DNA of 64,000 nt from Dokdonia pacifica (GTDB lineage: Bacteria > Bacteroidota > Bacteroidia > Flavobacteriales > Flavobacteriaceae). Positions 1 to 59,797 of this stretch are shown one piece after another (the first letter of the stretch is position 1; each line of letters starts with the position of its first letter). The notes beneath the pieces were generated by a model, which worked only from the letters and a program-made list of their open reading frames with translations, was not told where the DNA came from and ran no database searches. The position numbers were made by a program, and so were the translations under genes. The stretch lies in contig NZ_FZNY01000003.1 of assembly GCF_900188275.1 (NCBI RefSeq), positions 124,001 through 188,000 of the forward strand, written 5' to 3'.

Positions 1-436
1 AATGCTATAGAATAGTAACGTTTTCAAAGTGAGGTTGTTTAGGGAAATGTTCTATTTAAATATAAGAAAATATATTTTGATGATTTATAGGTTTTTATTG
101 AGTAGTTACATTGTTTGTTTATTAAGAATTATTTGTTGTGTATTACGCTTTCGCGAAAGCGTATTTTTCATTTCCCTAAATTGGTGCTATATTTTTTACC
201 AGTATTATTAGAGATATCACTTGTTTTAGCAATACTAAATTGACAAATAAATAATACAAGAATTTAAATGGTATTTAGGGAGGTTTTCATTTTAAAGTGA
301 TATTCATAAATATTATACCTGCAATGTAAATTGAGATCGTATATAAAAAAATAAGCGCAAACGCGTATTATATAAGAGTTAACACGTATTAAAGCAAAAG
401 AAATTGAATTGAACATAAAAAAAGAGTTATTGACTG
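1..436. other. AT-rich region without a recognisable gene
   Basis: No convincing gene is visible. A 60-codon open frame at 29-211 runs through a copy of the iterated palindrome (147-160) and has no recognisable domain, so I do not call it. A 12-bp perfect inverted repeat (TTTAGGGAAATG at 38-49, its complement at 169-180) encloses that palindrome. The rest is AT-rich. It lies downstream of the response regulator gene at 437-1087. Confidence 0.5.
147..160. repeat. Iterated palindrome copy 1 (intergenic)
   Basis: GCTTTCGCGAAAGC, with outer bases AC/GT also matching. Inside the gene-free 5' end, within the 38-180 inverted repeat. Confidence 0.95.
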
Positions 437-1087
437 CTAAAAATTTGATATAATATCTTTATTCTTTAATGCCCAATAGGTAACTGAATTTGTGACGCCT
501 TCAATGCCTAATTTATGAACCATGTTACTTCGATGTTTTTCGATTGTTCGTATAGATACTCCTAAAGTATTAGCTAATTCAGTATTAGGTGTTTTTAGAG
601 CAATTAATTTTAAAATAGTAATTTCAGAAGGTGTTAATAGTTTTATTTTCTTCAATTCTTCAGTAGCATTTTTTAATGAAAAATCATCAAAAGATGGACT
701 GAAATAGACTTTGTCATTAAGTACAGCTTCTATGCATTGTTCTATTTCAAGAAAACTATCTTCTTTTAACAGATAGCCATTAATGTATAGGGATTTTGCC
801 TTTTTTATATAATCTATTTCTCTGAGGTAGGAAAGTATGATAAATTTAGTGTCGATCCCTTTATCTTTTATCATCTTTATGACGTCAAACCCCGTTAATA
901 ATGGCATGTTTATATCTAAGATTGCTAATTTTGGTTTTAATCTTAGTATTAACTCCAAGGCATGCATACCATCTTTGGCTTGTCCTATAACGGAATAATG
1001 GTTTTTAGTAAACTCATTATATAATCCTTTTAAAAGCATAGGATGATCATCAGCTATTACTAATGAAATATTTTCTTTTTTTATCAT
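437..1087 (-). CDS. LuxR/NarL-family response regulator
   Basis: Cytoplasmic DNA-binding response regulator of 216 aa, the usual length. The receiver domain (about 1-120) has the acidic pair D13/D14, the phospho-acceptor D58 in LAILDINMP and the conserved K108. The C-terminal LuxR helix-turn-helix (about 148-210) carries the typical LTPSE start and the SIRTIEKHRSNM recognition helix. Its start codon overlaps the stop of the upstream kinase gene in a TAATG arrangement (1085-1089), so the two are almost certainly translated together and form a cognate pair. The target genes cannot be read from the sequence. Confidence 0.93.
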   Translation of the reverse strand: MIKKENISLVIADDHPMLLKGLYNEFTKNHYSVIGQAKDGMHALELILRLKPKLAILDINMPLLTGFDVIKMIKDKGIDTKFIILSYLREIDYIKKAKSLYINGYLLKEDSFLEIEQCIEAVLNDKVYFSPSFDDFSLKNATEELKKIKLLTPSEITILKLIALKTPNTELANTLGVSIRTIEKHRSNMVHKLGIEGVTNSVTYWALKNKDIISNF

Positions 1088-3105
1088 TACGAAATGGGTG
1101 TTATGAGTTCCAAGGTTGTCCCTTTATGATCACTATTAATAAATAGTTTAGATTTAATTATTTTGGTTCGTTCTAGGAGTGTTTTCATTCCTAAGCCAGA
1201 ATTTGACTGAATTTTTTCGGTAAATTCAAAACCTATACCGTTGTCTTTTATAACAGTTTTTATAGCATCTGTCTTTTTTGTAATTAATATAGAAACTGAT
1301 TTTGCGTTCGCATGTTTTACTATATTATTTAATATTTCTTGAATGATACGATATAAATGCAAGGCATTTTGTTTAGACAATATATCATCAATATTATCAA
1401 TCTCTGAAATGAAAAATAAATCAGTATTAGCATCTACTTCAATGATCATTGATTGTATGCTGTTAGTAATGCCAAGATGTTCGAAAGTAGTGGGATATAA
1501 ACTTTTAGATATGCCTCTTAATTCCTTCATAGTGTTTTTGGCTAAATCATTAATGTCATTATTTTTAAAGGATTTTATTTTCTTGGTAAGTAACGTAAGT
1601 TTTTGTCCAACGCTATCGTGTAAGTCTCTAGCCATTTGTGTGCGTTGCTCTTCTTGAGTTTTTATTAATTCTTGAGAAAATAATTCTTGATTATGTTTTT
1701 CTTTTCTAGAGAAATTCCTCGAATGGATTAAATAAATAATTGTAAATCCAAGAGACAGGCTTAGACCTCCAAAAATCAACCACTGATTTTTGATTTTATG
1801 TTGTTGATCTAAAACCGAGATTTCTGATTGTTGTTCTGATATTTGAAAATCCCTTTTTTCTGTTTCGTATAAGGTTTGATAAAAAAGTAGTGCTTTCGTT
1901 TTTTGTACTGAACTTACAGAATCTTTTAGAGTTACATACGTTATATAATGTTTATAAGAGTTTTTAATATCCCCTAACATTTTATATATATGAGCTAATT
2001 TTTCTTCTATAAGATAACTACCTCTTATCTCACCAATAGATTTTCTGTAATCTAAGGTCCAGGTAGCTTCTATTAGGGCTTTATTATAATCTTGAATAGA
2101 AATATAATAATCTACAAGTGCAGATCTGTAATTGTCTTCAAAAGGAATAGGTGTGCGTGTTATATATGTTGTTTGAATATTATTGTAAATTTCTTTAGCT
2201 TGATCTATACTGTCGTTTTCTGAGTAGGCACTTAATAATCCATAATGAATCATTGGACTTATCCCTAGATTGTAATCTGGTTCATTTACAAGTGTGTATG
2301 CTTCTTTTAAATATGCTATTCTTACTTTTTCATTTCCTAACATTTCTTGTTCTAAAGATGCATTGTATAGATTTGGTATTAAAACATTGAGTAGATGCAT
2401 GCGGCGTGAGAGAGTAAGGATTTCTTCTCGCTCTTTTTTTGCTTCTTCTAGAAAACCTATCTTGGAATATAAGGTAGCCAATGAGGCTCTGACATCTAGA
2501 AGCTTTGATGTGTCTTTTGCTTTTTGAAATACTTGAGCAGATTCTATTAGTAATTTAGAAGCTGTCGCATAGTCTCCGGTGTCTTGATATGCGGCAGACT
2601 TATACGCTCGTACAATAGCATACTTAATAGAGTCTCGATCTAACAAAGCATATTGCTCTGCCTTTTCATATATGGGAATCGATTCTAATAACTCTCCTGA
2701 AAAAAAATAACTATCACCTGCATTAGTATATAGTTGAGCTAAAAGACCAGAATTTTTAACATCTAAATTTAGTTTTTCAAAAGAATTAAATACTTTGATG
2801 CCTTCTTTTGGGTTTCTAGCTCTATTAGCGTAATAAAAAATGAGATCTCCTGTTTGCCAAACACCTAAGTGTATAGAGTCTAGTTCATAAGCATAATGAA
2901 TAGTTTGCTTAACGATAGAGTCAAATTGTAATTTATGATTATAACGAGTAAGCTTAGTAAGACTATCTAAATAATAAAGTTTTTCCGAACCTGTAGAATT
3001 ATGAATAATCCTTTTAAGGTTCTTAACTTTATTTTGAATAGAAGTTTCTTGGGAATTACAAATTAGGGTACCGCCAAGTAATAGGTGTAATAATAACCGT
3101 TTCAA
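1087..3105 (-). CDS. TPR-containing sensor histidine kinase (HisKA_3 type)
   Basis: 672-aa membrane sensor kinase. An N-terminal signal segment is followed by a long extracytoplasmic region of helical TPR-like repeats (about 60-400), one transmembrane helix (about 440-460), a coiled-coil linker, and a HisKA_3 dimerisation domain with the phospho-acceptor H496 in ARDLHDSVGQ. The HATPase domain follows, with N-box EILNNIVKHA and G-box DNGIGF. This is the common flavobacterial NarL-type kinase layout, with TPRs as the sensor; the ligand is unknown. It sits directly upstream of, and overlaps by one base, the response regulator gene, its likely partner. Confidence 0.92.
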   Translation of the reverse strand: MKRLLLHLLLGGTLICNSQETSIQNKVKNLKRIIHNSTGSEKLYYLDSLTKLTRYNHKLQFDSIVKQTIHYAYELDSIHLGVWQTGDLIFYYANRARNPKEGIKVFNSFEKLNLDVKNSGLLAQLYTNAGDSYFFSGELLESIPIYEKAEQYALLDRDSIKYAIVRAYKSAAYQDTGDYATASKLLIESAQVFQKAKDTSKLLDVRASLATLYSKIGFLEEAKKEREEILTLSRRMHLLNVLIPNLYNASLEQEMLGNEKVRIAYLKEAYTLVNEPDYNLGISPMIHYGLLSAYSENDSIDQAKEIYNNIQTTYITRTPIPFEDNYRSALVDYYISIQDYNKALIEATWTLDYRKSIGEIRGSYLIEEKLAHIYKMLGDIKNSYKHYITYVTLKDSVSSVQKTKALLFYQTLYETEKRDFQISEQQSEISVLDQQHKIKNQWLIFGGLSLSLGFTIIYLIHSRNFSRKEKHNQELFSQELIKTQEEQRTQMARDLHDSVGQKLTLLTKKIKSFKNNDINDLAKNTMKELRGISKSLYPTTFEHLGITNSIQSMIIEVDANTDLFFISEIDNIDDILSKQNALHLYRIIQEILNNIVKHANAKSVSILITKKTDAIKTVIKDNGIGFEFTEKIQSNSGLGMKTLLERTKIIKSKLFINSDHKGTTLELITPIS

Positions 3106-3264
3106 TTATAGGGAAACTTTAATTTAACTTAGAGGAGGTATAGGATAAAGATATTGAAAATATCTCTTGTATAATTATATTTTAACTTTAAATAATATAT
3201 TTTATCTATAGTTAAAATATAGAAATACTTATATCTTTCATTATATGAGAAGAATGAAAAAAAC

Positions 3265-3305
3265 AAAAGCCATATCAATGCAAATACATGCTTGATATGG
3301 CTTTT
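3265..3305. terminator. Hairpin with 13-bp stem, possible bidirectional terminator
   Basis: AAAAGCCATATCA (3265-3277) pairs perfectly with 3293-3305. T-rich tracts follow on both strands. It could end a transcript of the structured spacer to its right (minus strand) or stop read-through toward it. Confidence 0.55.
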
Positions 3306-3712
3306 TTGGTATTTTAAATAGTAAAAAACTTGACGTTTGTAAGGGATGTTTCATTCCTATAAAACTATTTAAAATGCCTTCAAAACATGAATTGTAACCT
3401 TGAATTACAATTAGGATGTTTTGATGTGGTCGCTTTTACTTAAGATTTTTCGATGTATGCTTTATTGATAGTTGTACGCTATTAATTAATAATACATCTA
3501 GCTTTTGCAGCGCTTCTTGTTAGTTTTATCACGACCGAGTTTCTGAATAACATATGTTTTTTGAAACTTTTTTGGGCTAATACAATATGAACAGAATCGC
3601 TTATTTCGTATTAAGCTTACCTAAAGATAATTAATTTTATTGCTCAATAAACAGGGGAGTATGATTTTAATTATCAACCGTTTATGAACTTAGGTTGTTA
3701 ACAATTGTGCAT

Positions 3713-3746
3713 AAAAAAGCTTTTGATGGATATCAAAAGCTTTTTT
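3713..3746 (-). terminator. rplS terminator
   Basis: A 15-bp perfect stem (3713-3727 with 3732-3746), a 4-base loop, and a T-run on the minus strand, 26 bp past the rplS stop codon. Confidence 0.85.
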
Positions 3747-3771
3747 TATATTTCGTAATGAAGGTGGTTTC

Positions 3772-4122: not shown

Positions 4123-4194
4123 GATGATGGATTTTATATTTTTTAAGTTAGTGCAACATTCACGATTCTCGTCAGAGGTTGATCTAAGCGGATG

Positions 4195-4224
4195 CAAAAG
4201 TACAATTTTAAATTACTTAAGCAA
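4195..4224 (-). promoter_or_regulatory. rplS promoter (Bacteroidota type)
   Basis: On the minus strand, TTG (4222-4224), a 19-bp spacer, then TACTTTTG (4195-4202). This fits the TTG-N19-TAnnTTTG consensus exactly. It places transcription start near 4188 and rules out a coding start above it. Confidence 0.75.
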
Positions 4225-4283
4225 TGTTATTTTGATTATTTTTTAATTGAATAGTTCTTATACTTTATATGTATAAACAACAA

Positions 4284-4585: not shown

Positions 4586-4615
4586 TGTCTTACTTTAATT
4601 ATATTATAAAATATG

Positions 4616-4687
4616 TAGCCCGTAGGGGAATCGAACCCCTCTTACCAGGATGAAAACCTGGCGTCCTAGCCGATAGACGAACGGGCC
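4616..4687 (-). tRNA. tRNA-Glu (anticodon TTC), second copy
   Basis: A 72-nt cloverleaf on the minus strand: a 7-bp acceptor stem starting GGCCCGT and closing with a G-U pair, an anticodon arm CCAGG-TTTTCAT-CCTGG with anticodon TTC, and a T-loop GGTTCGATTCC. CCA is not encoded. It is identical over its length to the copy at 4746-4817. Confidence 0.96.
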
Positions 4688-4745
4688 TAGGTAACATTTT
4701 GAAACTTAAAATACATGTGTAATTTTTATTTCAAATGTTGTTTTG

Positions 4746-4817
4746 TAGCCCGTAGGGGAATCGAACCCCTCTTACCAGGATGAAAACCTGGCGTCCTAGC
4801 CGATAGACGAACGGGCC
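4746..4817 (-). tRNA. tRNA-Glu (anticodon TTC), first copy
   Basis: Same 72-nt sequence and structure as the downstream copy, 58 bp away. It stands first in the tRNA-tRNA-rpsT series and has a consensus promoter just upstream. Confidence 0.96.
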
Positions 4818-4900: not shown

Positions 4901-6379
4901 TTAATATGCCTTTGCAAATAGTACTCTTTGAGTAGATGGTGCACCACTATAAACACAGCTTCCATCTTCTTTTGGATTGTCTAATGGAATGCATCGTATG
5001 GTAGCTTTAGTAAGCTCTTTGATTTTATTTTCAGTCTCAGCAGTTCCATCCCAATGAGCACTTATAAATCCTCCCTTAGATTCTAATATATCTTTAAATT
5101 CATCAAAGTTTTGTACTTCTGTAATATGGGTATCTCTATATGCTTTCGCTTTATTATATAAGTTTTCTTGAATATCTTTTAGAAGCTGCACTACAGTGTC
5201 AACAACATCCTCTTTTGCGACAAACTCTTTTGTAAGTGTATCTCTTCTGGCAAGCTCTACAGTTCGTTTTTCTAAATCTTTTGGACCTATTCCAATTCTG
5301 AGTGGCACTCCTTTTAATTCATACTCATTAAATTTCCAACCTGGTTTATGAGTATCTCTATCATCAAACTTAACAGTCACATTGTGAAGTCTTAAGTCAT
5401 TAACAATTTCATTAGCTACTTGGGAGATAGCATCTAATTGTTCTTGATTCCTATAAATAGGGACAATCACCACTTGGTAAGGTGCTAAGTTTGGAGGTAG
5501 TACAAGTCCCTGATCATCACTATGGGTCATGATAAGTGCACCCATAAGGCGTGTAGACACTCCCCAAGATGTAGCCCATACATGTTCTTGTTTCCCTTCT
5601 TTTGTTGCAAACTTTACATCAAATGCTTTCGCGAAATTTTGCCCTAAGAAATGTGATGTTCCTGCTTGCAGTGCTTTACCATCTTGCATTAATGCTTCAA
5701 TGCAAAATGTTTCGTCAGCTCCAGCAAAACGTTCACTTTCTGTTTTTAAACCTTTAATGACTGGTACTGCTAGAAAATTCTCTACAAACGTTGCGTATAC
5801 ATTATTCATTAAATCAGCTTCTGCTACAGCTTCCTCTTTTGTAGCATGCGCAGTGTGACCTTCTTGCCATAAAAACTCTGCTGTACGCAAGAATAAACGT
5901 GTACGCATTTCCCAACGTACAACATTTGCCCATTGGTTTATTAATAATGGTAAATCTCGATATGATTGTATCCATCCTTTATAGGTATTCCATATAATAG
6001 CTTCACTTGTTGGTCTTACAACAAGTTCTTCTTGAAGTTTTGCTTCAGGGTCTACAATAAGTTTTCCTTCATTATCAGGATCTGTTTTAAGTCTATAGTG
6101 AGTAACAACAGCACACTCTTTTGCAAATCCTTCTGCATTTTTTTCTTCAGCTTCAAAAAGACTTTTAGGAACAAAAAGAGGGAAGTATGCATTTTGATGT
6201 CCAGTCTCTTTAAACATTCTATCAAGCTCTGCTTGCATTTTCTCCCAGATAGCAAATCCGTATGGTTTGATGACCATGCATCCACGTACAGCAGAATTCT
6301 CTGCAAGATCAGCTTTTACAACAAGTTCATTATACCATTTTGAGTAATCTTCGCTTCTTTTTGTTAAGTTCTTCCCCAT
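4901..6379 (-). CDS. proS: Prolyl-tRNA synthetase (archaeal/eukaryote type)
   Basis: Charges tRNA-Pro with proline in the cytoplasm. At 492 aa, with the class II core and no bacterial editing insertion, it is the short archaeal/eukaryote-like ProRS used by Bacteroidota. Visible signatures are [16 protein letters not shown] at the N-terminus, the [11 protein letters not shown] motif 2 region, [16 protein letters not shown]-like sequence near 165-180, [14 protein letters not shown], and a C-terminal aromatic end (FAKAY). A partial copy of the iterated palindrome (5625-5637) lies within it. Transcribed alone; the divergent gene starts at 6483. Confidence 0.96.
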
Positions 6380-9873: not shown

Positions 9874-11559
9874 CTATTTTCCCATTTCTAATAAGGCAAT
9901 ATCAAATGGAGAGCTAAAACTTACTTTTCCATCGATAACCCTTACTTTCTGTTTTGAGTAGGTTTCTATAAGGTATTCTGCTTTCGCGAAAGCTTTATCA
10001 ACCTTAAATTCTTTCTTTCCAAAGGGAAGGTTAAGACCCACAATCACGTGATCTGTATATTCTCCAACAGTAAGATGACGACTAAAGATATATGACGTAT
10101 TATTTATAACAGTATGCTTTCCTGCACCAATAGCTGGATGATTTGCTCTGAATTGACCTAATTTTCTCCAATGTTTTAATACTTCTTTTGTTTTTGGAGA
10201 GTTTTTCTGATCCTCCCAGTTCATATAACTACGTAATGTAGCATCTCCTTGTGTGCCTTCTATGACAAGACTTCGGGCGCTTTCATCTCCATAATAAATT
10301 TGAGATATACCTGGTGTTAGTAATAATTTAGTACCTGTTTCTTTTGCTTTTTCTCTGTTTACATCAAAAGGTTGTCCATCATCATGGGAAGTAGCATAAT
10401 TTGTAATACTCACCCCTTTATGAGATGTTCTGTTTATACTATCATATTTTGCAAAAAGTGTTTTGTAATCCCCTTGTGCATCATACTTAAACTGGAAATT
10501 AATAAGGTTATCAAAACCATTAGCAAAATAATCTACTTTAGTTCCATCGCCAAAGTCAAAAGCACGACCGCCATCTACAGAGTAATTATAAACTTCTCCG
10601 AGCATAAAGAAATCAGTATCGTCTAGTACTTTGTCTGGGTTTGCTTTTTTGTATGTTGCAAATGCTTTATCTGCCTGCGCTCTTAATACAACCCAAGATG
10701 CTTCATCTACATGTTTTGCGGTATCTACACGATATGCATCTATTCCTAATTCTCGTACATAATCAGTAAGCCACTTGATAATGTAATTACGTGGAGTTTT
10801 TTTATAATTGTTTTCAGTAAAAAAAGTAGCAAGCTCTTGCATTTCTTGATCATAACGGCCTTCTGCTTTCCATTTTTCAACAAGAAGTTCTGGAAGTTCT
10901 ACTTCTGCAGTACTTTCTGTAAGAATATCGGGTAAGTTTTCTACAAGGCTACAGGCAGTTGTATTTTCATAGGTAGAAAATTCACAATTAGGATCTTCTC
11001 TTGCCCAATCTGTGCCCCAGAATGGATCTTGTGCTGTAACTGGTCCTGTGTGATTTAGCACCACATCCATTACAACACGTATTCCTTGAGCATGGGCTAG
11101 ATCTATCAATTCTTTTAAGTTATCCATAGTTCCAAAGTTTGGATCTAACTGTGTCCAATCTTTGGCCCAATATCCATGATATCCATAGGTAACTCCAGTG
11201 CCTTCATCTACAGCTCCGTGTACTTGCTCTACAACAGGTGTAAACCACAATGCATTTACTCCTAGTTCTTTAAAATACCCTTCTTTAATCTTAGAGGTAA
11301 TTCCTTTCAAATCACCACCTTCAAATCCTCGTAATACAGCTGTTTTTTCAGATCTCTCAAAATGAGTGTCATTTGTAGGGTCACCATTATTAAAACGATC
11401 GGTTAATAAAAAGTACATATTTGATGCCTCCCATAAAAAAGGGGTAGTAACAACCTCTTTTTTTGAAATATCATGAGTAGGATCTTCTTTTTTTTCTTCT
11501 TTACAAGCTGATACTAAAAACAATAAAATAAATAAAGGATAGAGCGTATAATTCTTCAT
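9874..11559 (-). CDS. GH13 alpha-amylase, outer-membrane lipoprotein
   Basis: 561-aa glycoside hydrolase that should cleave alpha-1,4 links in starch or glycogen. Lipobox LVSAC (Cys19) predicts a lipid-anchored, probably surface or periplasmic enzyme. The four GH13 regions are intact: DVVLNH (165-170), DAYRVDTAKH with nucleophile D279, GEVYNY with acid/base E322, and SHDD with D393. A C-terminal beta domain follows. A copy of the iterated palindrome (9980-9993) encodes AFAKA near residue 524-528. Its substrate range links it to the glycogen/alpha-glucosidase cluster at 29-36 kb. Confidence 0.95.
   Translation of the reverse strand: MKNYTLYPLFILLFLVSACKEEKKEDPTHDISKKEVVTTPFLWEASNMYFLLTDRFNNGDPTNDTHFERSEKTAVLRGFEGGDLKGITSKIKEGYFKELGVNALWFTPVVEQVHGAVDEGTGVTYGYHGYWAKDWTQLDPNFGTMDNLKELIDLAHAQGIRVVMDVVLNHTGPVTAQDPFWGTDWAREDPNCEFSTYENTTACSLVENLPDILTESTAEVELPELLVEKWKAEGRYDQEMQELATFFTENNYKKTPRNYIIKWLTDYVRELGIDAYRVDTAKHVDEASWVVLRAQADKAFATYKKANPDKVLDDTDFFMLGEVYNYSVDGGRAFDFGDGTKVDYFANGFDNLINFQFKYDAQGDYKTLFAKYDSINRTSHKGVSITNYATSHDDGQPFDVNREKAKETGTKLLLTPGISQIYYGDESARSLVIEGTQGDATLRSYMNWEDQKNSPKTKEVLKHWRKLGQFRANHPAIGAGKHTVINNTSYIFSRHLTVGEYTDHVIVGLNLPFGKKEFKVDKAFAKAEYLIETYSKQKVRVIDGKVSFSSPFDIALLEMGK
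9980..9993. repeat. Iterated palindrome copy 2 (in amylase)
   Basis: Same 14 bp; codes AFAKA in the C-terminal beta domain of the amylase. Confidence 0.95.
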
Positions 11560-12580: not shown

Positions 12581-13630
12581 TTGAAGGCTACTTATCATAA
12601 ACATATTCTCAAGTTTAAACGTGCTAGCGGCACATCTAGAGGAATTTTAAAGACTAAAGAAACCTGGTATATTGTTATAAAAGATGGAAATAAAACAGGC
12701 ATAGGGGAGTGTGGTATTTTAAGAGGATTAAGTTTTGATGATCGTCCAGATTATGAAGAGCGTTTACGATGGACATGCGCAAATATTCAGAAAGGACCAG
12801 AAATGTTATGGGAGGAATTAAAAGAGTTTCCGAGTATTCAGTTTGGTGTTGAGATGGCTTTTCTATCTCTAGAAGCGCAAGATCCTTTTGTATTATTTCC
12901 TTCAGAGTTTACACAACACAAAGACGCTATTGCGATCAATGGTTTAGTGTGGATGGGCGATGAGGTATTTATGAAAGAGCAGATAGAACAAAAATTAGAA
13001 GCTGGTTTTGACTGTATCAAAATGAAGATCGGTGCTATAGATTTTGATAAAGAATTGGCTTTACTTCGTTTTATTCGTAAGCACTATGACGCTTCAAAAA
13101 TAACTGTGCGTGTAGATGCTAATGGAGGGTTCGCTTTCGCGAAAGCAAGAGAAGTTTTAAAAGAACTTGCTACATTAGAGATTCATTCTATAGAACAACC
13201 CATTGCTGTGGGCCAATGGGAAGAGATGAAACGGCTTTGTGAAGAAACACCTACTCCTATTGCGCTTGATGAAGAACTAATAGGGGTGATGGATGTAATA
13301 AAAAAGCGTGAATTACTACAAATTATTCGGCCGCAATACATTATATTAAAGCCCAGTTTTGTGGGAGGATATCAGGGTAGTGAGGAGTGGATAGATCAAG
13401 CTGAAGCGCTAGGAATAGGATGGTGGATCACATCTGCCTTAGAAAGTAATATAGGTCTTAATGCCATTGCACAATGGACGTATGACTTAAAAGCAAAAGG
13501 ACCACAAGGACTAGGTACTGGCAGTTTATTTACTAATAATATTCAAGCACCTTTAGAAGTTAGAAAAGGGGCATTACACTATAATAATCAATTAGATTGG
13601 GATTTTAATACAGATACATTATGTTTATAG
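12581..13630 (+). CDS. menC: o-succinylbenzoate synthase (enolase superfamily), TTG start
   Basis: 349 aa, muconate-lactonizing/enolase-superfamily fold. Expected catalytic residues are present: the KMKIG lysine pair (about 147-149), metal ligands in VRVDANGG (D178), SIEQP (E204) and ALDEE (D228), and KPSFVGG with the second catalytic lysine. The first codon is TTG; no ATG occurs before the needed first beta strand, so TTG is the start. Context between menA and menE favours OSB synthase over the related dipeptide epimerases. A palindrome copy (13133-13146) encodes AFAKA right after the VDANGG metal site. Confidence 0.88.
   Translation: MKATYHKHILKFKRASGTSRGILKTKETWYIVIKDGNKTGIGECGILRGLSFDDRPDYEERLRWTCANIQKGPEMLWEELKEFPSIQFGVEMAFLSLEAQDPFVLFPSEFTQHKDAIAINGLVWMGDEVFMKEQIEQKLEAGFDCIKMKIGAIDFDKELALLRFIRKHYDASKITVRVDANGGFAFAKAREVLKELATLEIHSIEQPIAVGQWEEMKRLCEETPTPIALDEELIGVMDVIKKRELLQIIRPQYIILKPSFVGGYQGSEEWIDQAEALGIGWWITSALESNIGLNAIAQWTYDLKAKGPQGLGTGSLFTNNIQAPLEVRKGALHYNNQLDWDFNTDTLCL
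13133..13146. repeat. Iterated palindrome copy 3 (in menC)
   Basis: Codes AFAKA in the barrel next to the metal site. Confidence 0.95.
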
Positions 13631-14593: not shown

Positions 14594-15700
14594 ATGGTAA
14601 AAACTCCGCAACGATATATACGCGTGCATCCCAAATTTAAACTGAATGGGATACATTATACAATAGCTTCTTTGAAAACCTTAGCTTATGAGTGTATTAA
14701 AGAAGGTGAGCCTTATGAAGAATCTGTGGGTAATTTTTTATTAGATTGGCTTAATGACAAGTCGTATGTAACTGTCAAAACTTCAGGATCTACAGGAGCT
14801 CCCAAGGCCATAAAAATTAAGAAAATTCATATGTTTAATAGTGCTAGAGCTACGGCAAAGCATTTTAAACTTCCGGAAAAAACAACAGCGCTTCTTTGCT
14901 TGCCAGCAGAGTTTATTGCAGGCAAAATGATGTTGGTACGTGCTTTAGTGTTAGGATGGCATATAGATATGGCACAGCCTAAATCTAATCCTTTAGATAA
15001 TGTATATCGTCGTTATGATTTTTGCGCAATGACGCCTTTTCAACTAGATAATTCTTTATCTAGATTACATTTACTATCAAAGCTTATTGTGGGTGGCGGG
15101 GCTATTTCTGAAACATTAAAAAAGAAACTACAAGGGATTTCTACCAAGATTTATGAAACCTACGGAATGACAGAAACGGTAACACATATTGCCGCTAGAC
15201 GTGTGAATCCAAAGAAGAAAAGAGAAGGAATCATCCCTTTTAAAGCATTGTCTAAAGTAAGTGTTCATACAGATGATAGAGGCTGCCTTGTTATAAAAGC
15301 ACCGATGGTAAGTAGTGATCCTGTTATTACAAATGACCTTGTTGAACTTGAAACCTATAAGAAATTTGTTTGGTTAGGTCGTGTGGATAATGTCATTAAT
15401 AGTGGTGGAATCAAATTATATCCTGAGCAAATAGAATATAAATTGTCTTCTATGATACAGATGCCATTTTTTGTGGCGGGTATTCCAGATGATGCTTTGG
15501 GAGAAAAACTGGCATTATTTGTAGAACAAGAGGAAGAGTTTGCTTTCGCGAAAGCGGAATATGACGTAACAGATTTTGAAAAATATGAAATTCCTAAAGT
15601 CGTTTTTTCTATCCCAAGATTTGAACGCACTGCAAACGGTAAACTACAACGAGGACAAACGGTATTTAAAATATTAAAACCTTTAACTAAAGATATTTAG
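14594..15700 (+). CDS. menE: o-succinylbenzoate-CoA ligase-like AMP-binding enzyme
   Basis: 368-aa adenylate-forming enzyme, shorter than the ~450-aa standard, as is usual for the Bacteroidota form. It has the P-loop VKTSGSTGAPKAIKI (about 57-71), the YETYGMTETVTHIA motif (about 190), and WLGRVDNVINSGG (about 256) before the C-terminal subdomain with the catalytic lysine in RTANGKLQRG. It activates OSB to OSB-CoA in the menaquinone pathway. A palindrome copy (15542-15555) encodes AFAKA in the mobile C-terminal part. Confidence 0.9.
   Translation: MVKTPQRYIRVHPKFKLNGIHYTIASLKTLAYECIKEGEPYEESVGNFLLDWLNDKSYVTVKTSGSTGAPKAIKIKKIHMFNSARATAKHFKLPEKTTALLCLPAEFIAGKMMLVRALVLGWHIDMAQPKSNPLDNVYRRYDFCAMTPFQLDNSLSRLHLLSKLIVGGGAISETLKKKLQGISTKIYETYGMTETVTHIAARRVNPKKKREGIIPFKALSKVSVHTDDRGCLVIKAPMVSSDPVITNDLVELETYKKFVWLGRVDNVINSGGIKLYPEQIEYKLSSMIQMPFFVAGIPDDALGEKLALFVEQEEEFAFAKAEYDVTDFEKYEIPKVVFSIPRFERTANGKLQRGQTVFKILKPLTKDI
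15542..15555. repeat. Iterated palindrome copy 4 (in menE)
   Basis: Codes AFAKA in the C-terminal subdomain. Confidence 0.95.
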
Positions 15701-18390: not shown

Positions 18391-20592
18391 ATGAAAAATC
18401 TAATTGTTGTAATTGCTGTGTTATTCGCTTTCGCGAAAGCGCACACCACCCAAGCACAAGAGAAAATAATATTTTATTGGGACGCATCACTGTCTATGCA
18501 GGATAGAAATCTCGATATAGAATTAGAACATTTAGATACCTTTTTTGAAAAACATAAAGAAGCCGCTGTTCATTTTGTGTCTTTTAGTTCAGAAATTATT
18601 CTAGAAGAAGATTATACAATTGTAAATGGAAATTGGGATGCTTTAAAAGCAGAATTACAAAGAACAGTTTATGATGGTGCTGTCTCTTTTGAATCTCTAG
18701 ATTTTACATTGCAAACAGATCGTTTTATCATCTCAACAGATGGAGAAAGTATTTCTTCTGAATTACCTGAAAAAGCAAGTGCTCCTGTTCATATTATTAC
18801 TAATAATACCAATCGTTCTATTATGAAATTGGCATTAAATTCGGTAGGAAGCCTTACAAATACAAACAAACTTGCACGTAAAAAAGATAGACAACCTACT
18901 GTGGTTACTGGGGTAGTGATAGACAATAATTCAGGAGGAGGTCAGGCATTAGAAGGTGCTATTATTAAGATAGTAGGAGGCGATACAGAAACTACCACAG
19001 ATAGTAAAGGTGCTTATACAATAGAGGCATTTCCGGAAAATGTATTAGAAGTGTCGTATGTAGGAAAACGTTCTAGACGATTTAGAGTAGGGAAGCAACG
19101 TACGTTGAATATTATTTATAGTGATCAAGGAGATGTGCTTAAAGAAGTGGTGATTACTAGTAAAGTAAATGAAGCGGTAGCTACCGAAGAAAAAGAAGTA
19201 GATCTTGGACAGCATAAAATTCAGAAAAAAAGATTAGGATATTCAGTAGAGACTATTACAGATAAAGAAATATCTCAAATAGATACCAATGTAAAACAAG
19301 CTGTAAATGGACAATTTGCAGGCTTAGAAATTGCTAATGATGCGGCTCAAACTAGAGTAGATTTATCTCAGTTTTTAGGAAGACATAAAAACATGACACT
19401 TCTAGGGGATCAAACTGGACTTGTGGTGATAGACGGGGTGCCTCAATCTAAAACAGATTCAGGACAGTTTTCTGGAAACACAGGTAGTACAGGAGTGACA
19501 ACTAATATCAATCCTGATAATATTGCTAGCATATCTTATTTAAAAGGACTTGCAGCTACAAATAGATATGGAACACTAGGAAAAGGGGGCGTTATATTAA
19601 TTACTACAAAATCATCTCTAGCTGGAGAAGTCACCAAAAAAGATAATACCCCTCAAGGAACTACAGCAACCTATGCTGATACGGCTATAGAAATAGAATC
19701 ACTTCCTAAAACAGAATATATAGCAGCTTTGCAAAAGCATAAAACAATAGATGCCGCTTTTGAAGAATATCTCATACAACGTAAAACCTATGGTAGTACC
19801 CCTAGTTTTTATCTCAATGTTGCCGATTATTTTAAAGGATGGAATAATATAGAAATGACTACTCGAGTACTTTCTAATGTATCTGAAATAGCCAAAAATG
19901 ATGCAACAGCTTTAAGAGCAATGGCTTTTAAAATGGATGAGATAGGGAATAAAAAGAAAGCTTTAGAGGCGTATAAATACATCAATAAGATTAGGTCTTT
20001 AGAAATACAATCCTATCGTGATCTGGCACTTTCCTATGCAGAAAATGGCGATGTAAGTAATGCTTTTAATATTTATCAGAACATAGTAGAAGGTAAAGGA
20101 AACATTGCAGTAAACGCATCTGGGATAGAAGAAAGCCTTATTAAGGAGTATCAAAACTTTATAAAAAAATATAAAAGTGCCATTAATGTAAGTACCATTT
20201 TACCACGATTCTTAAAAGAGCCTGAAAAACTTAAAAAACGTATTGTTTTAGAATGGAATCATCAGGACGCAAAATTTGATTTGCAAATTGTAAATCCTCA
20301 AAAAAGATTCTTTACATGGGAACATACAGATAAAGCAGCTGCACAACGACTTTCTCAAGAAAAACGAGATGGTTTTCAAATGGAAGAGTTTTTCTTAACC
20401 GAAGATGATAAAGGAAAATGGACCTTTAATATTATTTATTATGGGAAAATTACAGATGATGACGGATCACCTACCTACATGAAATTTACAGTATATGATG
20501 AGTACGGAACTCCTCAAGAATCTAGAGATGTGAAGGTAGTGCGCTTAATTGATGTTAATCAGCCCTATACAGTGCTCGAAGTGTCATTATAA
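18391..20592 (+). CDS. vWA / carboxypeptidase-regulatory / TonB-plug / TPR fusion without a barrel
   Basis: 733-aa exported protein. Order: signal peptide (1-23, containing the palindrome-encoded AFAKA); vWA-like domain with an intact DASLS metal site at 31-35; CarboxypepD_reg Ig-like domain (about 168-255); a TonB plug-like domain (about 285-405) with VVIDGVPQ and GVILITTKS; TPR-like helices (about 490-600); and a C-terminal beta domain resembling DUF2135 (IVLEWNHQDAKFDLQIVNP). No outer-membrane barrel strands follow the plug, so it is not a transporter. Related Bacteroidota proteins usually carry a VIT domain before the vWA; here it is absent. Role unknown. Confidence 0.8.
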   Translation: MKNLIVVIAVLFAFAKAHTTQAQEKIIFYWDASLSMQDRNLDIELEHLDTFFEKHKEAAVHFVSFSSEIILEEDYTIVNGNWDALKAELQRTVYDGAVSFESLDFTLQTDRFIISTDGESISSELPEKASAPVHIITNNTNRSIMKLALNSVGSLTNTNKLARKKDRQPTVVTGVVIDNNSGGGQALEGAIIKIVGGDTETTTDSKGAYTIEAFPENVLEVSYVGKRSRRFRVGKQRTLNIIYSDQGDVLKEVVITSKVNEAVATEEKEVDLGQHKIQKKRLGYSVETITDKEISQIDTNVKQAVNGQFAGLEIANDAAQTRVDLSQFLGRHKNMTLLGDQTGLVVIDGVPQSKTDSGQFSGNTGSTGVTTNINPDNIASISYLKGLAATNRYGTLGKGGVILITTKSSLAGEVTKKDNTPQGTTATYADTAIEIESLPKTEYIAALQKHKTIDAAFEEYLIQRKTYGSTPSFYLNVADYFKGWNNIEMTTRVLSNVSEIAKNDATALRAMAFKMDEIGNKKKALEAYKYINKIRSLEIQSYRDLALSYAENGDVSNAFNIYQNIVEGKGNIAVNASGIEESLIKEYQNFIKKYKSAINVSTILPRFLKEPEKLKKRIVLEWNHQDAKFDLQIVNPQKRFFTWEHTDKAAAQRLSQEKRDGFQMEEFFLTEDDKGKWTFNIIYYGKITDDDGSPTYMKFTVYDEYGTPQESRDVKVVRLIDVNQPYTVLEVSL
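18427..18440. repeat. Iterated palindrome copy 5 (in vWA/plug fusion)
   Basis: Codes AFAKA within the signal peptide. Confidence 0.95.
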
Positions 20593-22400: not shown

Positions 22401-22414
22401 GCTTTCGCGAAAGC
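22401..22414. repeat. Iterated palindrome copy 6 (intergenic)
   Basis: Between the barrel terminator and aroQ; the flanks extend the symmetry to TACGCTTTCGCGAAAGCGTA. Confidence 0.95.
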
Positions 22415-28916: not shown

Positions 28917-30326
28917 ATGAAGATTATACACATTAGTGCAGAGTGTTACCCTATAGCTAAAGTTGGCGGTTTAGCAGATGTTGTAGGAGCACTCCCTAAA
29001 TATCAAAATAGAATTGGTCATCAGGCTACTGTATTGATGCCATATTATGAAACAGCATATGTAAAAAAAGCAACGGCAGTCGTTGATTTTTGCTATAATC
29101 TGGTGATGGATCAAAAAACATATTTTGCCGAAGTACTTTCTGTAAATGATGCTTCATTAGGATTTCCATTGTTTTTAGTTCGTATTGCAGAATTAACAGA
29201 TCGAAAAGAAGTATATGGTTATGAAGACGATGCGCTACGTTTTGTAGCATTTCAAAGAGTCGCATTACAGTGGATTATGAGTAAAGATGCCATGCCAGAT
29301 GTGGTACATTGTCATGATCATCATACAGGGCTTGTTCCTTTTATGATGAGTCGTAGTGAACCTTTTGAAACACTCAAAGATATTCCAACTGTACTCTCTA
29401 TACATAATGCACAATATCAAGGACAATTTTCTCATGAAATGGGAGGTGTTTTACCACGCTTTCGCGAAAGCGATCTAGGACTGCTAGACTGGGATGGAAT
29501 GATTAATCCGCTTGCGGCGGCTATTAAATGTGCTTGGCGAGTAAATACAGTTTCTCCATCATACATGGAAGAATTAAAGCAGAAAGCTAATGGACTCGAA
29601 TGGTTGTTAAATCATGAAAGCGATAAATGTGTTGGAATTCTTAATGGAATAGATGCCGAAACATGGGATCCAGCTACAGATACCTATTTACATAAAAACT
29701 ATACTATCAGAACAAGACAGTCTGGTAGAAAGACCAATAAAGAAGCATTGTGTGAAGAATTTGGATTGGATTCTAGCAAGCCTCTTTTTGGCTTTATAGG
29801 ACGATTAGTATGGGAAAAAGGAGCCGATATCTTACCAGCAATTATAGACAAAGCATTACAGGATTATGATATTAATATCATATTGTTAGGTTCAGGTTCT
29901 CCAGAAGTAGAATCGCAACTTAAAACCTTAGCTATAAAATACAAAGGACGCTATAATGCTTACATAGGGTATCAAGAACGTATGTCGCATCAAGTGTATG
30001 CTGGAGCAGATTTTCTATTGATGCCTAGCCGAGTAGAGCCTTGTGGCCTCAATCAAATGTACTCTTTGCGTTATGGATGTATGCCTATAGTAAGACGTAC
30101 GGGAGGATTAAAAGATACTGTAATTGACCTTGGAGAAAAAGGTGGTTTTGGTATATGTCACGACCATACTTCAGAAGAAGATGTAGTGTATAGTATTGGA
30201 AGGGCTGTAACACATTTTGAAAATCAGAAAAAATTTAAAGAAATACAAAAAACAATGATGCATTTAGAGCACAGTTGGGAAAACTCAGCTCAAATGTATG
30301 TATCTTTATATAATCAGTTAAAATAG
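28917..30326 (+). CDS. glgA: Glycogen synthase (ADP-glucose type, GT5)
   Basis: 469 aa. Transfers glucose from ADP-glucose to the glycogen chain. N-terminal HISAECYPIAKVGGLADVVGAL carries the KxGGL motif that binds ADP-glucose. The central hinge and FIGRLVWEKGADIL, then MPSRVEPCGLNQMYSLRYG with the conserved Glu, and RRTGGLKDTV complete the GT-B fold. A palindrome copy (29458-29471) encodes RFRES, the only coding copy not read as AFAKA. Seven bases before glgC: first gene of the glycogen operon. Confidence 0.96.
   Translation: MKIIHISAECYPIAKVGGLADVVGALPKYQNRIGHQATVLMPYYETAYVKKATAVVDFCYNLVMDQKTYFAEVLSVNDASLGFPLFLVRIAELTDRKEVYGYEDDALRFVAFQRVALQWIMSKDAMPDVVHCHDHHTGLVPFMMSRSEPFETLKDIPTVLSIHNAQYQGQFSHEMGGVLPRFRESDLGLLDWDGMINPLAAAIKCAWRVNTVSPSYMEELKQKANGLEWLLNHESDKCVGILNGIDAETWDPATDTYLHKNYTIRTRQSGRKTNKEALCEEFGLDSSKPLFGFIGRLVWEKGADILPAIIDKALQDYDINIILLGSGSPEVESQLKTLAIKYKGRYNAYIGYQERMSHQVYAGADFLLMPSRVEPCGLNQMYSLRYGCMPIVRRTGGLKDTVIDLGEKGGFGICHDHTSEEDVVYSIGRAVTHFENQKKFKEIQKTMMHLEHSWENSAQMYVSLYNQLK
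29458..29471. repeat. Iterated palindrome copy 7 (in glgA)
   Basis: Codes RFRES, in a different frame from the other coding copies. Confidence 0.95.
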
Positions 30327-33541: not shown

Positions 33542-33555
33542 GCTTTCGCGAAAGC
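33542..33555. repeat. Iterated palindrome copy 8 (intergenic)
   Basis: 25 bp after glgB; the symmetry extends to TATACGC...GCGTATA. Confidence 0.95.
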
Positions 33556-38343: not shown

Positions 38344-38357
38344 GCTTTCGCGAAAGC
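38344..38357. repeat. Iterated palindrome copy 9 (intergenic)
   Basis: 18 bp after the UMF1 transporter gene. Confidence 0.95.
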
Positions 38358-43342: not shown

Positions 43343-43739
43343 TTTATATTTTTGGTTACTTCTGTTATAAAGATGCGCGCTTTTTTAAATTGTTACACTT
43401 TCGTGAAAAAATATTTAAAATGTAGTTTTGTTGTACTCCATTAAAGATAGTGAAGCTATCGTATTTAAAGATGTTACGGTGTTTTTTTTCTTTTAGTCTT
43501 TTATAAATTACATACATGTTTTATGAGAAAAAGAATGGGAATAGTGACAGAATTGCTTTTCGCGAAAGCGTAAAAAGACTTTTTAAAAGTAGTAGACTGG
43601 CATAAGAATTGTCTAAGTATAGATAGAAATCGTGTATATGTATTGGTTTTTATAGAGAGAAGTACAATACACTGGTAATTAATAAAAAAAACAAAAGGTC
43701 TAATGGATCAGGAATGTGACATTATGACGTATATATAAT
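43343..43739. other. 397-bp divergent spacer between sigma operon and lon
   Basis: No gene seen. It must hold the promoters of both the ECF operon (leftward) and lon (rightward). A variant of the iterated palindrome with one extra T (43555-43569) and a small hairpin GATAGTGAAGCTATC are the only marked sequences. Confidence 0.5.
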
Positions 43740-48293: not shown

Positions 48294-49712
48294 TTATAAA
48301 ACTGGTCGTACTCCTATACTTTTAAAGAGTTTTGCTTTTGCTTTTAAGAATCCATTTTGTGTCTTATTTCTTTTTAAATAAGCATCTATAAGGCTTTTTT
48401 CACGAGAGTTTACTAGGAATATAGAACTTTCCCCTAATTCAAATTTACGCTCTTCTCCAGTAAGTAATACTTGATAATTGGTAACAATATCAGTAATAAG
48501 CGTATTTTGTCTTGTATACGAATCTAGCTCTTGATAGATTGCTTTTACACTATTCTGTATATTCGTTTCTGTCGCTATTAAGTCTAGCTCTGCATCACGT
48601 ATTTTAAGTTTTGAAAGTTTTAAATCCCCACGCTCTTTTCTTAAAAATAATGGAAAACTAAAATTAACTCCTCCTTTATATTGATTTGCCAAAAAGCTAT
48701 TACCTATATCAGGCGTTGAGGTAAGAAAGTTATACTCCAGTTTTAATTTTGGTAACAATTTATTTGCCTTTAGGGTACGATCTACCTGTAATCCTTCTAA
48801 TTTTAGATTTAGTGATTGTAGCTTTGGATGATTCCCTATTGTAAATGTTTCTAGTGATTGTCCTGCAATTTGTAATGAAATATCTACTTCACTTTTGATA
48901 TTCAAATTAGGGATTACATTATCCTCTAACTCTAGGGGTGTATTACTATTCAACCATAAGAAATTTGAAAGCCGCATGCCTGCATTAAACAAAGTGACTT
49001 GTGCTTGCTCAAGACTTAACTGTCGGTTTTGTAATGATATTAGGGCTTCTGTAGCATCTATAGCTGCATTTTCTCCAACTTCTACACCTTTTTGAATTCC
49101 ATCATATCGTAATTGTGCATTACTTACAAACTGTTCAAAAGTGATGGCATCTTGATAGGCCTGTAGCCAATTAAAATATGCCAAAGAAGCATCGTAAATC
49201 ACTTGGTTAACTAACAAGTCACGATCTGCTTGTGTTTGTTGTCTAAAGAATTTTGCTTTACGCAAAGTAGCCATACGATCATTAATCCATAGCCCTTGTG
49301 CAATATCTATAGAAACTCCTGCAGCAAAAAGCCCTTCTTCTGGAACATTTCTTTCTGGATTTAGAAAAACGCCCTCGTTACGTTCAAACCCAGCTTTTAA
49401 CTCGATACCGTACCACGTAGGTATTTTAAGTTTTGCATCTAGAATATCGTAATACTCAAGATCCTTAAAGTCTTTACGACTGTAATCTGCAACTAGTTTT
49501 GGATCAAAACCACCACGAGCTTTTAATACATTGGCTTGTCCTTCTGTAAGTACTAATTCTGCCTGCTTTACAATAGGATGGAATTGTTTTACATAGCCTA
49601 GGTACTCTTCAAAGCCTAATATTTTTTCTACTTCTTGTAGGGTAGGTGTTTGCGCTTTCGCGAAAGCGGACCCTAAAAGAAACACAAATGTATACAACAC
49701 TGTTTTCATCAT
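48294..49712 (-). CDS. TolC-family outer-membrane efflux protein
   Basis: 472 aa outer-membrane channel of the OEP family: a signal peptide (which includes the palindrome-encoded AFAKA at 49654-49667), long helical hairpins in two repeats and no lipobox. Its start overlaps the HlyD gene stop by 4 bp. With HlyD and the ABC protein it should form a type I-like export channel. Confidence 0.92.
   Translation of the reverse strand: MMKTVLYTFVFLLGSAFAKAQTPTLQEVEKILGFEEYLGYVKQFHPIVKQAELVLTEGQANVLKARGGFDPKLVADYSRKDFKDLEYYDILDAKLKIPTWYGIELKAGFERNEGVFLNPERNVPEEGLFAAGVSIDIAQGLWINDRMATLRKAKFFRQQTQADRDLLVNQVIYDASLAYFNWLQAYQDAITFEQFVSNAQLRYDGIQKGVEVGENAAIDATEALISLQNRQLSLEQAQVTLFNAGMRLSNFLWLNSNTPLELEDNVIPNLNIKSEVDISLQIAGQSLETFTIGNHPKLQSLNLKLEGLQVDRTLKANKLLPKLKLEYNFLTSTPDIGNSFLANQYKGGVNFSFPLFLRKERGDLKLSKLKIRDAELDLIATETNIQNSVKAIYQELDSYTRQNTLITDIVTNYQVLLTGEERKFELGESSIFLVNSREKSLIDAYLKRNKTQNGFLKAKAKLFKSIGVRPVL
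49654..49667. repeat. Iterated palindrome copy 10 (in tolC-like gene)
   Basis: Codes AFAKA within the signal peptide. Confidence 0.95.
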
Positions 49713-52713: not shown

Positions 52714-52714
52714 G

Positions 52715-55569: not shown

Positions 55570-55625
55570 ATATAAACTTTAGTTAGGGCTGTAAAAATAA
55601 TAAAAAGTAAGACTTTTCAAAGCAT

Positions 55626-55907: not shown

Positions 55908-55990
55908 AACTGTTTGTTTTTAAAATGTATATTCTGTTTTGAGCCGTATGTAATCGCATACATACTCACATCTCTAATGTACGTAATTCC

Positions 55991-56004
55991 GCTTTCGCGA
56001 AAGC
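55991..56004. repeat. Iterated palindrome copy 11 (intergenic)
   Basis: Between the PCD gene and the two-domain secreted protein gene. Confidence 0.95.
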
Positions 56005-56058
56005 GTACTTAAGAAAAAAATAACAGGAGTTTTTAACAAGATTTCATAGGAGTAAATC

Positions 56059-56769: not shown

Positions 56770-56812
56770 GATGTTATATTTTGATACGTATAAAAATACA
56801 ACATCTTTACCT

Positions 56813-56955
56813 GTTGTGCATTTTGAATAGATTTCTTGATTTTTCCCCTCCCTGAAGGGTGAATCGAAGAAACCTTCATTACTTCCTTTAGGATTTGAGG
56901 AAAATAATGAAGATTGATAGGATACTATGACGGTTGTTTTGTCAAAATGCACAAC
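56813..56955. mobile_element. 143-bp inverted-repeat element, MITE-like
   Basis: Perfect 14-bp inverted ends (GTTGTGCATTTTGA at 56813-56826, its complement at 56942-56955); extended outwards by ACCn they match over 17 of 18 bases. Inside are further hairpin arms (CTTCATTACTTCCT with AGGAAAATAATGAAG). No gene inside. It could be a non-autonomous element or a structured regulatory region. Confidence 0.45.
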
Positions 56956-56989
56956 CGGTTATCTCTATTTATGCATAACGCGTTCAGTA

Positions 56990-58831: not shown

Positions 58832-59104
58832 AAGCTTCGCCTTTGTATAGGCAGATACTATGTTATTTGATTTACTATATGTAGTATTTGGATATGGTAT
58901 GATCATGAGCAAAGCACGATCATATATAGTTGTCTAAATTACTACAAAAAAGTATAATTTGCTTCTTTGTCGTAATTTTTACAAAAAGTTTATAGCCGTT
59001 TTTTTATCAGTTTGGGAATCCGAAATTTATAGAGGTTTTGACATTAGAAACGCTATCCAATATAGCTTAGATTGTAAAGAAGTTTTCTATTATTTTTTAA
59101 TATT

Positions 59105-59173
59105 CCATTAACCCATTAACCCATTAACCCATTAACCCATTAACCCATTAACCCATTAACTCATTAACTCATT
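59105..59173. repeat. 8-bp tandem repeat overlapping a stop codon
   Basis: CCATTAAC is repeated seven times without change (59105-59160), then one TCATTAAC and a partial unit. The stop codon of the EthD-like gene (59169-59171) lies in the last unit, so changes in copy number leave the protein intact. Confidence 0.95.
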
Positions 59174-59567
59174 GCACAATTTCACTAATTTGAATCACAG
59201 GTTGTGTATTGGTGTAGTTTGGGATATCAGTGACGATTTTTTCTGCTACGGGGGCAAATGCTTCTTGGTAAGCTTCAAGAGAATCAAAATATAAATATCC
59301 AATGGCGAGATAGGGGATAGGATCGTTAGGTGTTCGTCCAGAAATACCGGTATCTATATGCAATCCTTTAAGAGCATCTCCCATCAGATCGGCAACCATA
59401 GGCATATGCTTAGTCGCATAATAATCCATATCAAAAGTTTTTCCGTCGCTATTTGGATATAAGATAGTTACTTTGACTCTTCCTTTTTTGTCAAGAGATG
59501 TATCTTTTTGGCAGCTAGTAACAAATGTACTTATAACAAGAAGTAGAAGAATGAAGTTCGTTTTCAT
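59169..59567 (-). CDS. EthD-domain lipoprotein
   Basis: 132 aa. Lipobox FVTSC (Cys19). The rest is an EthD-type dimeric ferredoxin-like domain: KVTILYPNSDGKTFDMDYYATKHMPMV is the family start, and the SLEAYQEAF helix follows. EthD proteins are usually cytoplasmic, so a lipoprotein form is less common. Role unknown. Confidence 0.85.
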   Translation of the reverse strand: MKTNFILLLLVISTFVTSCQKDTSLDKKGRVKVTILYPNSDGKTFDMDYYATKHMPMVADLMGDALKGLHIDTGISGRTPNDPIPYLAIGYLYFDSLEAYQEAFAPVAEKIVTDIPNYTNTQPVIQISEIVQ

Positions 59568-59651
59568 ATAGCTATGATGTATTGATTGGGTATGAAGGTA
59601 AGAAATTTATGGAATCGTTCTTCAAGATGTTTTTTTAGGGTCATTTTCTTT

Positions 59652-59686
59652 ATACGCTTTATACGCTTTATACGCTTTATCGCTTT
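59652..59686. repeat. 9-bp tandem repeat made of palindrome half-sites
   Basis: ATACGCTTT is repeated three times, then a shorter ATCGCTTT. The unit equals the left arm of the extended iterated palindrome (TATACGCTTT before the CGCG centre). Confidence 0.9.
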
Positions 59687-59688
59687 GC

Positions 59689-59784
59689 TCTCCCTCTGGT
59701 CGTGAACCTGCCTGCCGGCAGGCAGGTCTCGCAAGTTCGATTTACCATTTCATTCTCCCTCTGGTCGTGAATCTCACAAGTTCG
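59689..59784. repeat. Two direct repeats, one split by a 20-bp palindrome
   Basis: TCTCCCTCTGGTCGTGAA plus TCTC(G/A)CAAGTTCG occurs at 59689-59739 and 59754-59784. In the first copy CCTGCCTGCCGGCAGGCAGG (59707-59726) stands exactly between the two halves, while in the second the halves are joined. Confidence 0.9.
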
Positions 59785-59797
59785 CTTTCGCGAAAGC
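59784..59797. repeat. Iterated palindrome copy 12 (intergenic)
   Basis: At the end of the repeat-rich spacer, upstream of the DoxX-like gene. Confidence 0.95.

Follow-up and report, generated by a model that had tools for sequence, protein, structure and literature searches.

The stretch analysed here (the window) comprises 64,000 bp of the flavobacterium Dokdonia pacifica (contig NZ_FZNY01000003.1, positions 124,001 to 188,000), and it is punctuated by a 14-bp palindrome, GCTTTCGCGAAAGC (57% G+C), hereafter the site. An earlier note, made from the letters of the window alone, had reported 12 exact copies, and all 12 were found where it had placed them. By a simple longest-open-reading-frame (ORF) call, which underlies all the gene and intergenic assignments below, six of them are genic. 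Five of these six are translated in the AFAKA frame, as had been claimed: those at 9980..9993 and 15542..15555, that at 13133..13146 in a menC-like gene, and those at 18427..18440 and 49654..49667; the sixth, at 29458..29471, is read as RFRES. The copies at 18427 and 49654 do fall in signal-peptide-like N-termini (residues 13-17 and 16-20), and the SusC/RagA match of the gene at 18427 is below the curated cut-off. The other six are noncoding (147..160; 22401..22414; 33542..33555, between glgB-like and alpha-glucosidase-like genes; 38344..38357; 55991..56004; and 59784..59797), so that half of the copies indeed lie in 9.9% of the bases. The extension to a longer TAC...GTA form, which the note had called frequent among intergenic copies, is found at three of the six (147, 22401, and 33542), a fair description but not a general one. 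Copies with one mismatch are absent from the window, and the two near-copies of the note have two mismatches each. One starts at 5625, as stated (5625..5638); it is genic, is read as NFAKA, and is one-armed, with AATT at its right end. The other, upstream of lon, starts at 43556 and not at 43555 (43556..43569). Together, matches with at most two mismatches number 14 in the window, against 0.11 in dinucleotide shuffles.

In the whole source genome (G000), GCTTTCGCGAAAGC occurs 903 times in 5.52 Mb and its reversed pattern not once; with up to two mismatches, the numbers are 1259 and 21. The count, by which the note could have been refuted, is far above expectation, and the observation made in the window was right but understated.

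Anatomy, spacing, and placement of the site

A 500-kb sample of the closed genome G016 contains 154 TTTCGCGAAA cores, which carry GC arms on both sides (131/154) or one arm (23/154), and never lack both. Outward from each arm the consensus reads G (0.89), T (0.61; G 0.16), A (0.81), and A (0.67; C 0.22). The 22-bp dyad consensus is TTACGCTTTCGCGAAAGCGTAA, each half of which consists of TTTCGCGAAAGCG(T/G)AA and, further out, some 20 bases poor in G. At positions +7 to +18, G makes up 4-12% of bases in G016, G011, and genus g11, a dense genus outside Dokdonia, as compared with 18-19% in whole samples. As genic and intergenic sites show a similar bias, and so do the two sides of the site (Dokdonia, g11), it is a feature at the level of the DNA. 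One-armed sites pooled over genomes (n = 51) retain GTAA and have 12.5% G at +8 to +26 from the core on their intact side, whereas the broken side has no GTAA and 16.5% G; the arms of full sites have 10%. Since the intact half alone keeps GTAA and is more G-poor, the half-site is a directional unit, and the palindrome is two such units overlapping. A period-6 pattern in the arms was suggestive when sites were pooled and weak in intergenic arms alone, and is not claimed here.

By the coefficient of variation (CV), the gaps between sites were more even than chance would give in all the stretches tested (CV 0.61, P 0.00005 in G016 0-230 kb; P 0.0002 to 0.009 in the remaining stretches). The 67 sites counted in G016 left only 2 gaps below 1 kb, against 16.7 expected; the significance of the short-gap count taken alone ranges from <0.00005 to 0.14. 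The inclusion of one-armed sites lowered the CV in 2/5 stretches (G011 0-100 kb, from 0.54 to 0.38, and G016 2.91-2.99 Mb), had no effect on it in G011 280-360 kb and in G281, and raised it in G433 (0.29 to 0.36). In the window, the two near-copies brought the CV from 0.54 (P 0.019) down to 0.31 (0/20,000 draws). The mean distance of a one-armed site from a full site was 2603 bp, against 1565 bp under the null (n = 35; 0/5000 draws as high). One-armed sites thus occupy the intervals that full sites leave and behave as working sites.

Of 129 classified sites in G016, 57 are intergenic, in 9.5% of bases, and 72 are in genes, where the AFAKA frame prevails (41/72). The intergenic share is similarly high in G011 (18/39; 8.5% of bases) and g11 (26/43; 9.7%), and the enrichment is weak in G230, of genus g210 (5/25; 11.4%). 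Among G016 sites with a neighbouring stop codon, 30/51 are no more than 30 bp from it, as compared with 37% expected; this proximity is weaker elsewhere (G011 6/15 vs. 28%; g11 8/16 vs. 34%; G230 0/2). Few G016 sites lie between divergent genes (4/55, against 23% of intergenic bases). The corresponding figures are 3/18 against 23% in G011 and 9/25 against 30% in g11, and owing to the latter the avoidance of promoters is not general.

A palindrome that is so often intergenic, and in G016 often just after a stop codon, could be taken for a hairpin element acting in RNA or in single-stranded DNA, such as a bidirectional terminator or a repeat like the repetitive extragenic palindromes (REP). However, most of the classified G016 sites are in genes, copies within coding sequence have flanks of the same symmetry, and the outward side is A/C-rich and has no T-run. 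Moreover, at +3 to +10 in G016 the opposite flanks match each other less than their independent composition predicts, which speaks against selection for a hairpin. Neither the arm pairing beyond the consensus nor the 3' T-run by which terminators and REP elements are recognized was seen, and we consider this explanation highly improbable.

Distribution, conservation, and the comparison with HIP1

The site is present in all 17 sampled genomes of the same genus (369-905 copies). Six records named Dokdonia match the Lon of the window at 88-96% identity; the genomes to which these loci lead, six in number and probably overlapping with the 17, hold 570-905 copies. In a survey of 397 genomes of the family, six were dense: G000 and G011 (Dokdonia), three of g11 (578, 664, and 609 copies), and G230 (408 copies). 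The other 391 held 0-19 copies, with at least one copy in 74 of them. None of 23 genomes sampled from the order's other families had the site, and in a sample of 395 genomes from the phylum, those outside the family held at most one copy. Copy number need not track genome size (903 copies in 5.5 Mb as compared with 905 in 3.3 Mb), and the density is 164 per Mb in G000 and 273 per Mb in G016. In a lon tree, g11 was placed near Winogradskyella, and a topology holding the three dense genera together was rejected only marginally (approximately unbiased test, p-AU 0.041; long branches, one gene), suggesting, with the same narrow margin, that the dense genera do not form a single clade. Sparse genera, examined in samples of 20-40 kb from 18 genomes and in pooled lon loci, yielded no comparably strong palindrome. 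Two candidates were set aside there: TACCGGTA in G184 does not stand in a constant longer context, and GATCGCGATC, seen in the pool from Winogradskyella, occupies a single place inside lon in several species.

Orthologous places were mapped via collinear matches, which replaced an earlier blastn mapping that had left most sites unmapped. Exact sites were kept at 36/57 mappable places within the genus (18 comparisons, which include reciprocal pairs and are not independent), at 19/19 in the close pair G016-G439, and at 6/11 across genera, as compared with 0-12.5%, mostly <6%, for random positions. In the three genomes to which the window was compared, only 4-7 of its 12 sites were mappable; G437 kept 4/4, G016 3/7 plus two in one-armed form, and G439 3/6 plus one in one-armed form. 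The sites at 22401 and 38344 are exact in all three (that at 38344 also in L018 and L021), and that at 55991 is exact in G016 and G437. The site at 33542 is exact in G437 and one-armed in G016 and G439, and that at 29458 is exact in G439 and one-armed in G016. From G016 to the g11 genome G433, 2/5 sites were kept, plus one as one-armed, and in the sparse genomes G368 and G184 none of eight mappable sites was kept. Conservation, on which the note had also been open to refutation, thus stands well above that of random positions, and as the sites at 13133 and 15542 are missing from their places in both G016 and G439, sites also turn over. At 38344 and upstream of lon, the site persists while the neighbouring bases have diverged; the latter place has a site-like core in seven aligned Dokdonia sequences (exact only in L018).

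In several low-copy genomes the copies are clustered, with pairs 933 bp apart in G118, G127, G141, G254, and G200. The pair in G118 (L096) sits in an island of copper-resistance type, with genes for RND efflux, outer-membrane efflux, a multicopper oxidase, and a P-type ATPase; the island was annotated in this locus only, and L097, L098, L100, and G200 are likened to it by the 933-bp spacing alone. The copies in these motif-sparse genomes are likely a trace of passage through motif-rich hosts, and the site may mark, more generally, DNA that passed through dense hosts. The copy at position 7431 of L096 has a counterpart in a sparse genome, at position 4536 of L099, which differs from it by two substitutions and no indel; this single coding counterpart lends no support to spread by insertion. 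With the clustering in the island and these substitutions without an indel, sites appear to travel with the surrounding DNA and to decay by substitution.

The earlier note had likened the motif in style to the highly iterated palindrome 1 (HIP1) of cyanobacteria and had raised methylation of the TCGCGA that it contains. In the 500-kb G016 sample, TCGCGA occurs 104 times outside exact sites, as compared with 49 expected (two-strand counts), and 46 of these 104 are enriched TTCGCGAA near-copies. TCGCGA is much shorter than the repeated unit, and a plain 6-bp methylation site was rejected. More elaborately, in the model of Elhai, a HIP1-type site would arise and persist through the joint action of a DNA methyltransferase and mismatch repair. 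HIP1 and the alternate HIPs (GCGATCGC and others) are likewise single palindromes iterated genome-wide in limited lineages, and a single palindrome is strongly over-represented here as well (903 vs. 0). The one-mismatch copies vary mostly at the two outer positions (20/32), and Elhai describes a similar preference for the ends among one-off variants of HIP1 (PMC4390886). The same paper gives a density of 500-2500 instances per Mb and a predicted cognate methyltransferase in every cyanobacterial genome with HIP (PMC4390886). The Dokdonia-type site differs on each count: it is 14-22 bp long instead of 5-8 bp with a short G+C-rich core, occurs at about 164-273 per Mb, has G-poor arms and one-armed sites in its gaps, and shares no methyltransferase of the three families tested. 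Hits over the cut-off were found for PF01555 in 2, PF00145 in 7, and PF02086 in 9 of the 15 dense genomes, and no enzyme of these families was common to all 15 (PF02384- and PF07669-type enzymes were not searched). G009 and G281 had no hit to any of the three families, G006 had none over the cut-off, and G000 had hits to PF02086 only. The lack of a common methyltransferase of the tested families disfavours methylation of the HIP1 type, which we regard as very unlikely, although Elhai also notes HIP1 genomes without one of its two enzymes (PMC4390886). What HIP1-like palindromes do is a relationship that the same paper calls a mystery (PMC4390886), and the present site sets beside them an independent example that is far longer and more exact.

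Phage-like DNA and the possible function of the site

A scan of viral contigs for the exact pattern returned at least 120 stretches (L116-L235). Among the matches listed, 43 of these at least 120 have less than 45% G+C. The 77 with 45% G+C or more have, where listed, mostly weaker flank signatures, and may be unrelated or chance occurrences. For closer analysis, we chose 18 records, 7-40 kb long, for host-like flanks, base composition, or several sites; the 12-mer TTTCGCGAAAGC was present at all 63 places in them (429 kb; one per 6.8 kb). When the 19-base form ACGCTTTCGCGAAAGCGTA was scanned for, a single contig matched. Proteins were scanned in 11 of the 18 records, and portal, major head, tape-measure, terminase, head-protease, or tail-sheath matches were found in six (G447, G450, G451, G453, G455, and G458). 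G446 had primase and integrase matches, G447 an integrase match too, and G449 a transposase match; G444 and G445 matched only PHROGs of unknown function, and the single scanned protein of G448 had no match. At 24 distinct sites from AT-rich viral records, G is at +1 (0.75) and A at +3 (0.77), and the arms have 11% G at +5 to +24, against 19%, similarly to chromosomal arms; four sites from records of 48% G+C have 17%, against 23%. When three viral loci were compared with named phages by BLAST, no DNA match was obtained. One viral capsid protein matches that of Cellulophaga phage phi39:1 at 45%.

The presence of the site on contigs this short bears on the proposal of the earlier note that a nucleoid or segregation protein binds it. 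Such a protein, a homodimer with a helix-turn-helix or ParB-like fold, would bridge or mark DNA every few kilobases. The palindrome, its even spacing and conservation, its long symmetric flanks, and the 22-bp dyad consensus are compatible with this proposal and with the likening to HIP1 in style, so that the interpretation of the note was supported in part, its methylation element being disfavoured. The scarcity of G016 sites between divergent genes would also fit, but g11 lacks this deficit and G011 has it only slightly, and the chosen viral contigs carry the site too. Sites of the parS/Noc type are palindromic, 14-16 bp long, with TTTC...GAAA-like halves, and occur in few copies or in a regional cluster. 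The Dokdonia-type site resembles them in its symmetry and in such halves, but it is spread evenly in hundreds of copies, and the half-sites cannot be aligned base for base. We know of no nucleoid protein with about 900 strict 14-bp sites, and a role of this kind seems to us unlikely.

Alternatively, the site could be a DNA uptake signal: a competence receptor would prefer site-bearing DNA, biased uptake with recombination would spread the site, and the palindrome would be two overlapping signals of opposite orientation. The uptake sequences of Haemophilus and Neisseria are, according to two papers, evenly spaced, present in ORFs, in excess in noncoding DNA, and found as overlapping inverted pairs at gene ends (PMC1939737, PMC7811141). 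Even spacing, presence in ORFs, and noncoding enrichment (weak in G230) were all found here. Like the signals of Pasteurellaceae (uptake signal sequences, USS) and Neisseriaceae (DNA uptake sequences, DUS), the site is limited to clades, and in G016 it lies near stop codons. A core with about 20 biased bases on one side also resembles the Haemophilus signal with its flank consensus. However, in one of these papers, known uptake sequences are not palindromes (PMC1939737), whereas the main form here is a perfect one: a non-palindromic directional core is what was not found, as 131/154 G016 cores are two-armed and 23 one-armed. Phage-like contigs carry the site as well, and phage copies are not easily explained by uptake. 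At the level of listings, the literature searched contained no uptake sequence in Bacteroidetes. We therefore view uptake as possible but doubtful.

The site is, then, a symmetric sequence with directional halves, evenly spaced and conserved, and carried on chromosomes and phage-like contigs alike. From this we infer a sequence-specific reader protein and selection for the distance between sites, and we tentatively favour a dyad signal of two overlapping directional half-sites that is read inside the cell, most likely by a mechanism resembling that of Chi. A sequence-specific protein would read the half-sites on DNA, and selection would keep one site in roughly every 3.5-7 kb, the spacing observed, phage-like DNA included. 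A DNA-processing enzyme, for instance a break-repair nuclease-helicase, would meet the site from either side, and there it would cease to degrade the DNA and turn to recombination. Being palindromic, the site would act in both directions, and on each strand the G/T-rich sequence 5' of it would help to load a recombinase. DNA without the site would be treated as non-self, and resident phages would gain by carrying it.

We favour the Chi-like reading because the density, the G/T-rich 5' flanks, and the carriage by phage-like DNA fit it. In E. coli, G/T-rich DNA adjoins Chi. The density is similar to that of the Chi of RecBCD/AddAB, of which one source counts 1008 in the 4.64 Mb of E. coli. Some phages carry Chi, and lambdoid phages without recombinases over-represent it, as stated in PMC3784561.

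Several observations weigh against a Chi-like signal. The flank bias is hardly visible in G230 and stops after about 25 bases, and close pairs of sites exist, such as one in G440 with a gap of 155 bp. Known Chi sites are short, non-palindromic, and strand-biased, whereas the Dokdonia-type site is longer and palindromic. Its two-armed form has no orientation, and the 23 one-armed G016 sites were unbiased between the leading (10) and lagging (13) strands, the origin being placed from a weak GC skew only; an orientation bias by replichore was thus not seen. Neither a protein that reads the site nor a cognate enzyme was found: 36/36 genomes lack RecC (PF04257), and AddAB-type enzymes were not searched. 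RecC is absent from dense and sparse genomes alike, and as a marker of the reader it is uninformative. Three viral records (L150, L228, and L159) have an integrase- or transposase-type gene, so that their sites could have been acquired during residence in a chromosome. In addition, these records were picked for their sites from among the matches listed, and several closely duplicate one another (G457 and G458 have positions in common). Finally, two cultured Nonlabens phages, whose host may or may not be site-rich, have no site; both are annotated with recombination genes of their own.

Taken together, these results point to an undescribed signal for an unidentified cell machine. A broader reading, which we put forward with some reserve, is a previously undescribed self-DNA system of Bacteroidota, in which a long two-way palindrome would serve as the identity mark and a dedicated machine would read it on any DNA in the cell. 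If so, chromosomes and adapted phages alike must carry the mark every few kilobases. The site has measurable spacing rules, is common to phage-like DNA, and has no shared methyltransferase of the tested families, which makes its function testable, and Dokdonia has culturable marine strains. Neither the 14-mer itself nor a description of the motif was found in the open-licence literature searched, topics on Dokdonia, on uptake sequences of flavobacteria, and on palindromes of Flavobacteriaceae included, which is no proof of novelty. In PMC8034619, TTTCGCGAAA occurs only as part of words that are described as missing from the human genome and some others, an unrelated context.

A few other repeats were noticed along the way. 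In G016, near 1.4 Mb, a large repetitive region (L242 6831-10140) holds TATGTTCCGTCT copies about 339 and 255 bp apart. Words of the CTTCGGAA type, which we presume to be UUCG-loop terminators, are enriched in L314, L325, and L323 (G116, G141). The window itself contains two adjoining tRNA-Glu genes, both with a TTC anticodon (4615-4817), and a perfect tandem array of the octamer CCATTAAC (59105-59159), which is also enriched, as TTAATGGGTTA, in the sample of G230, from another genus (10 counts).

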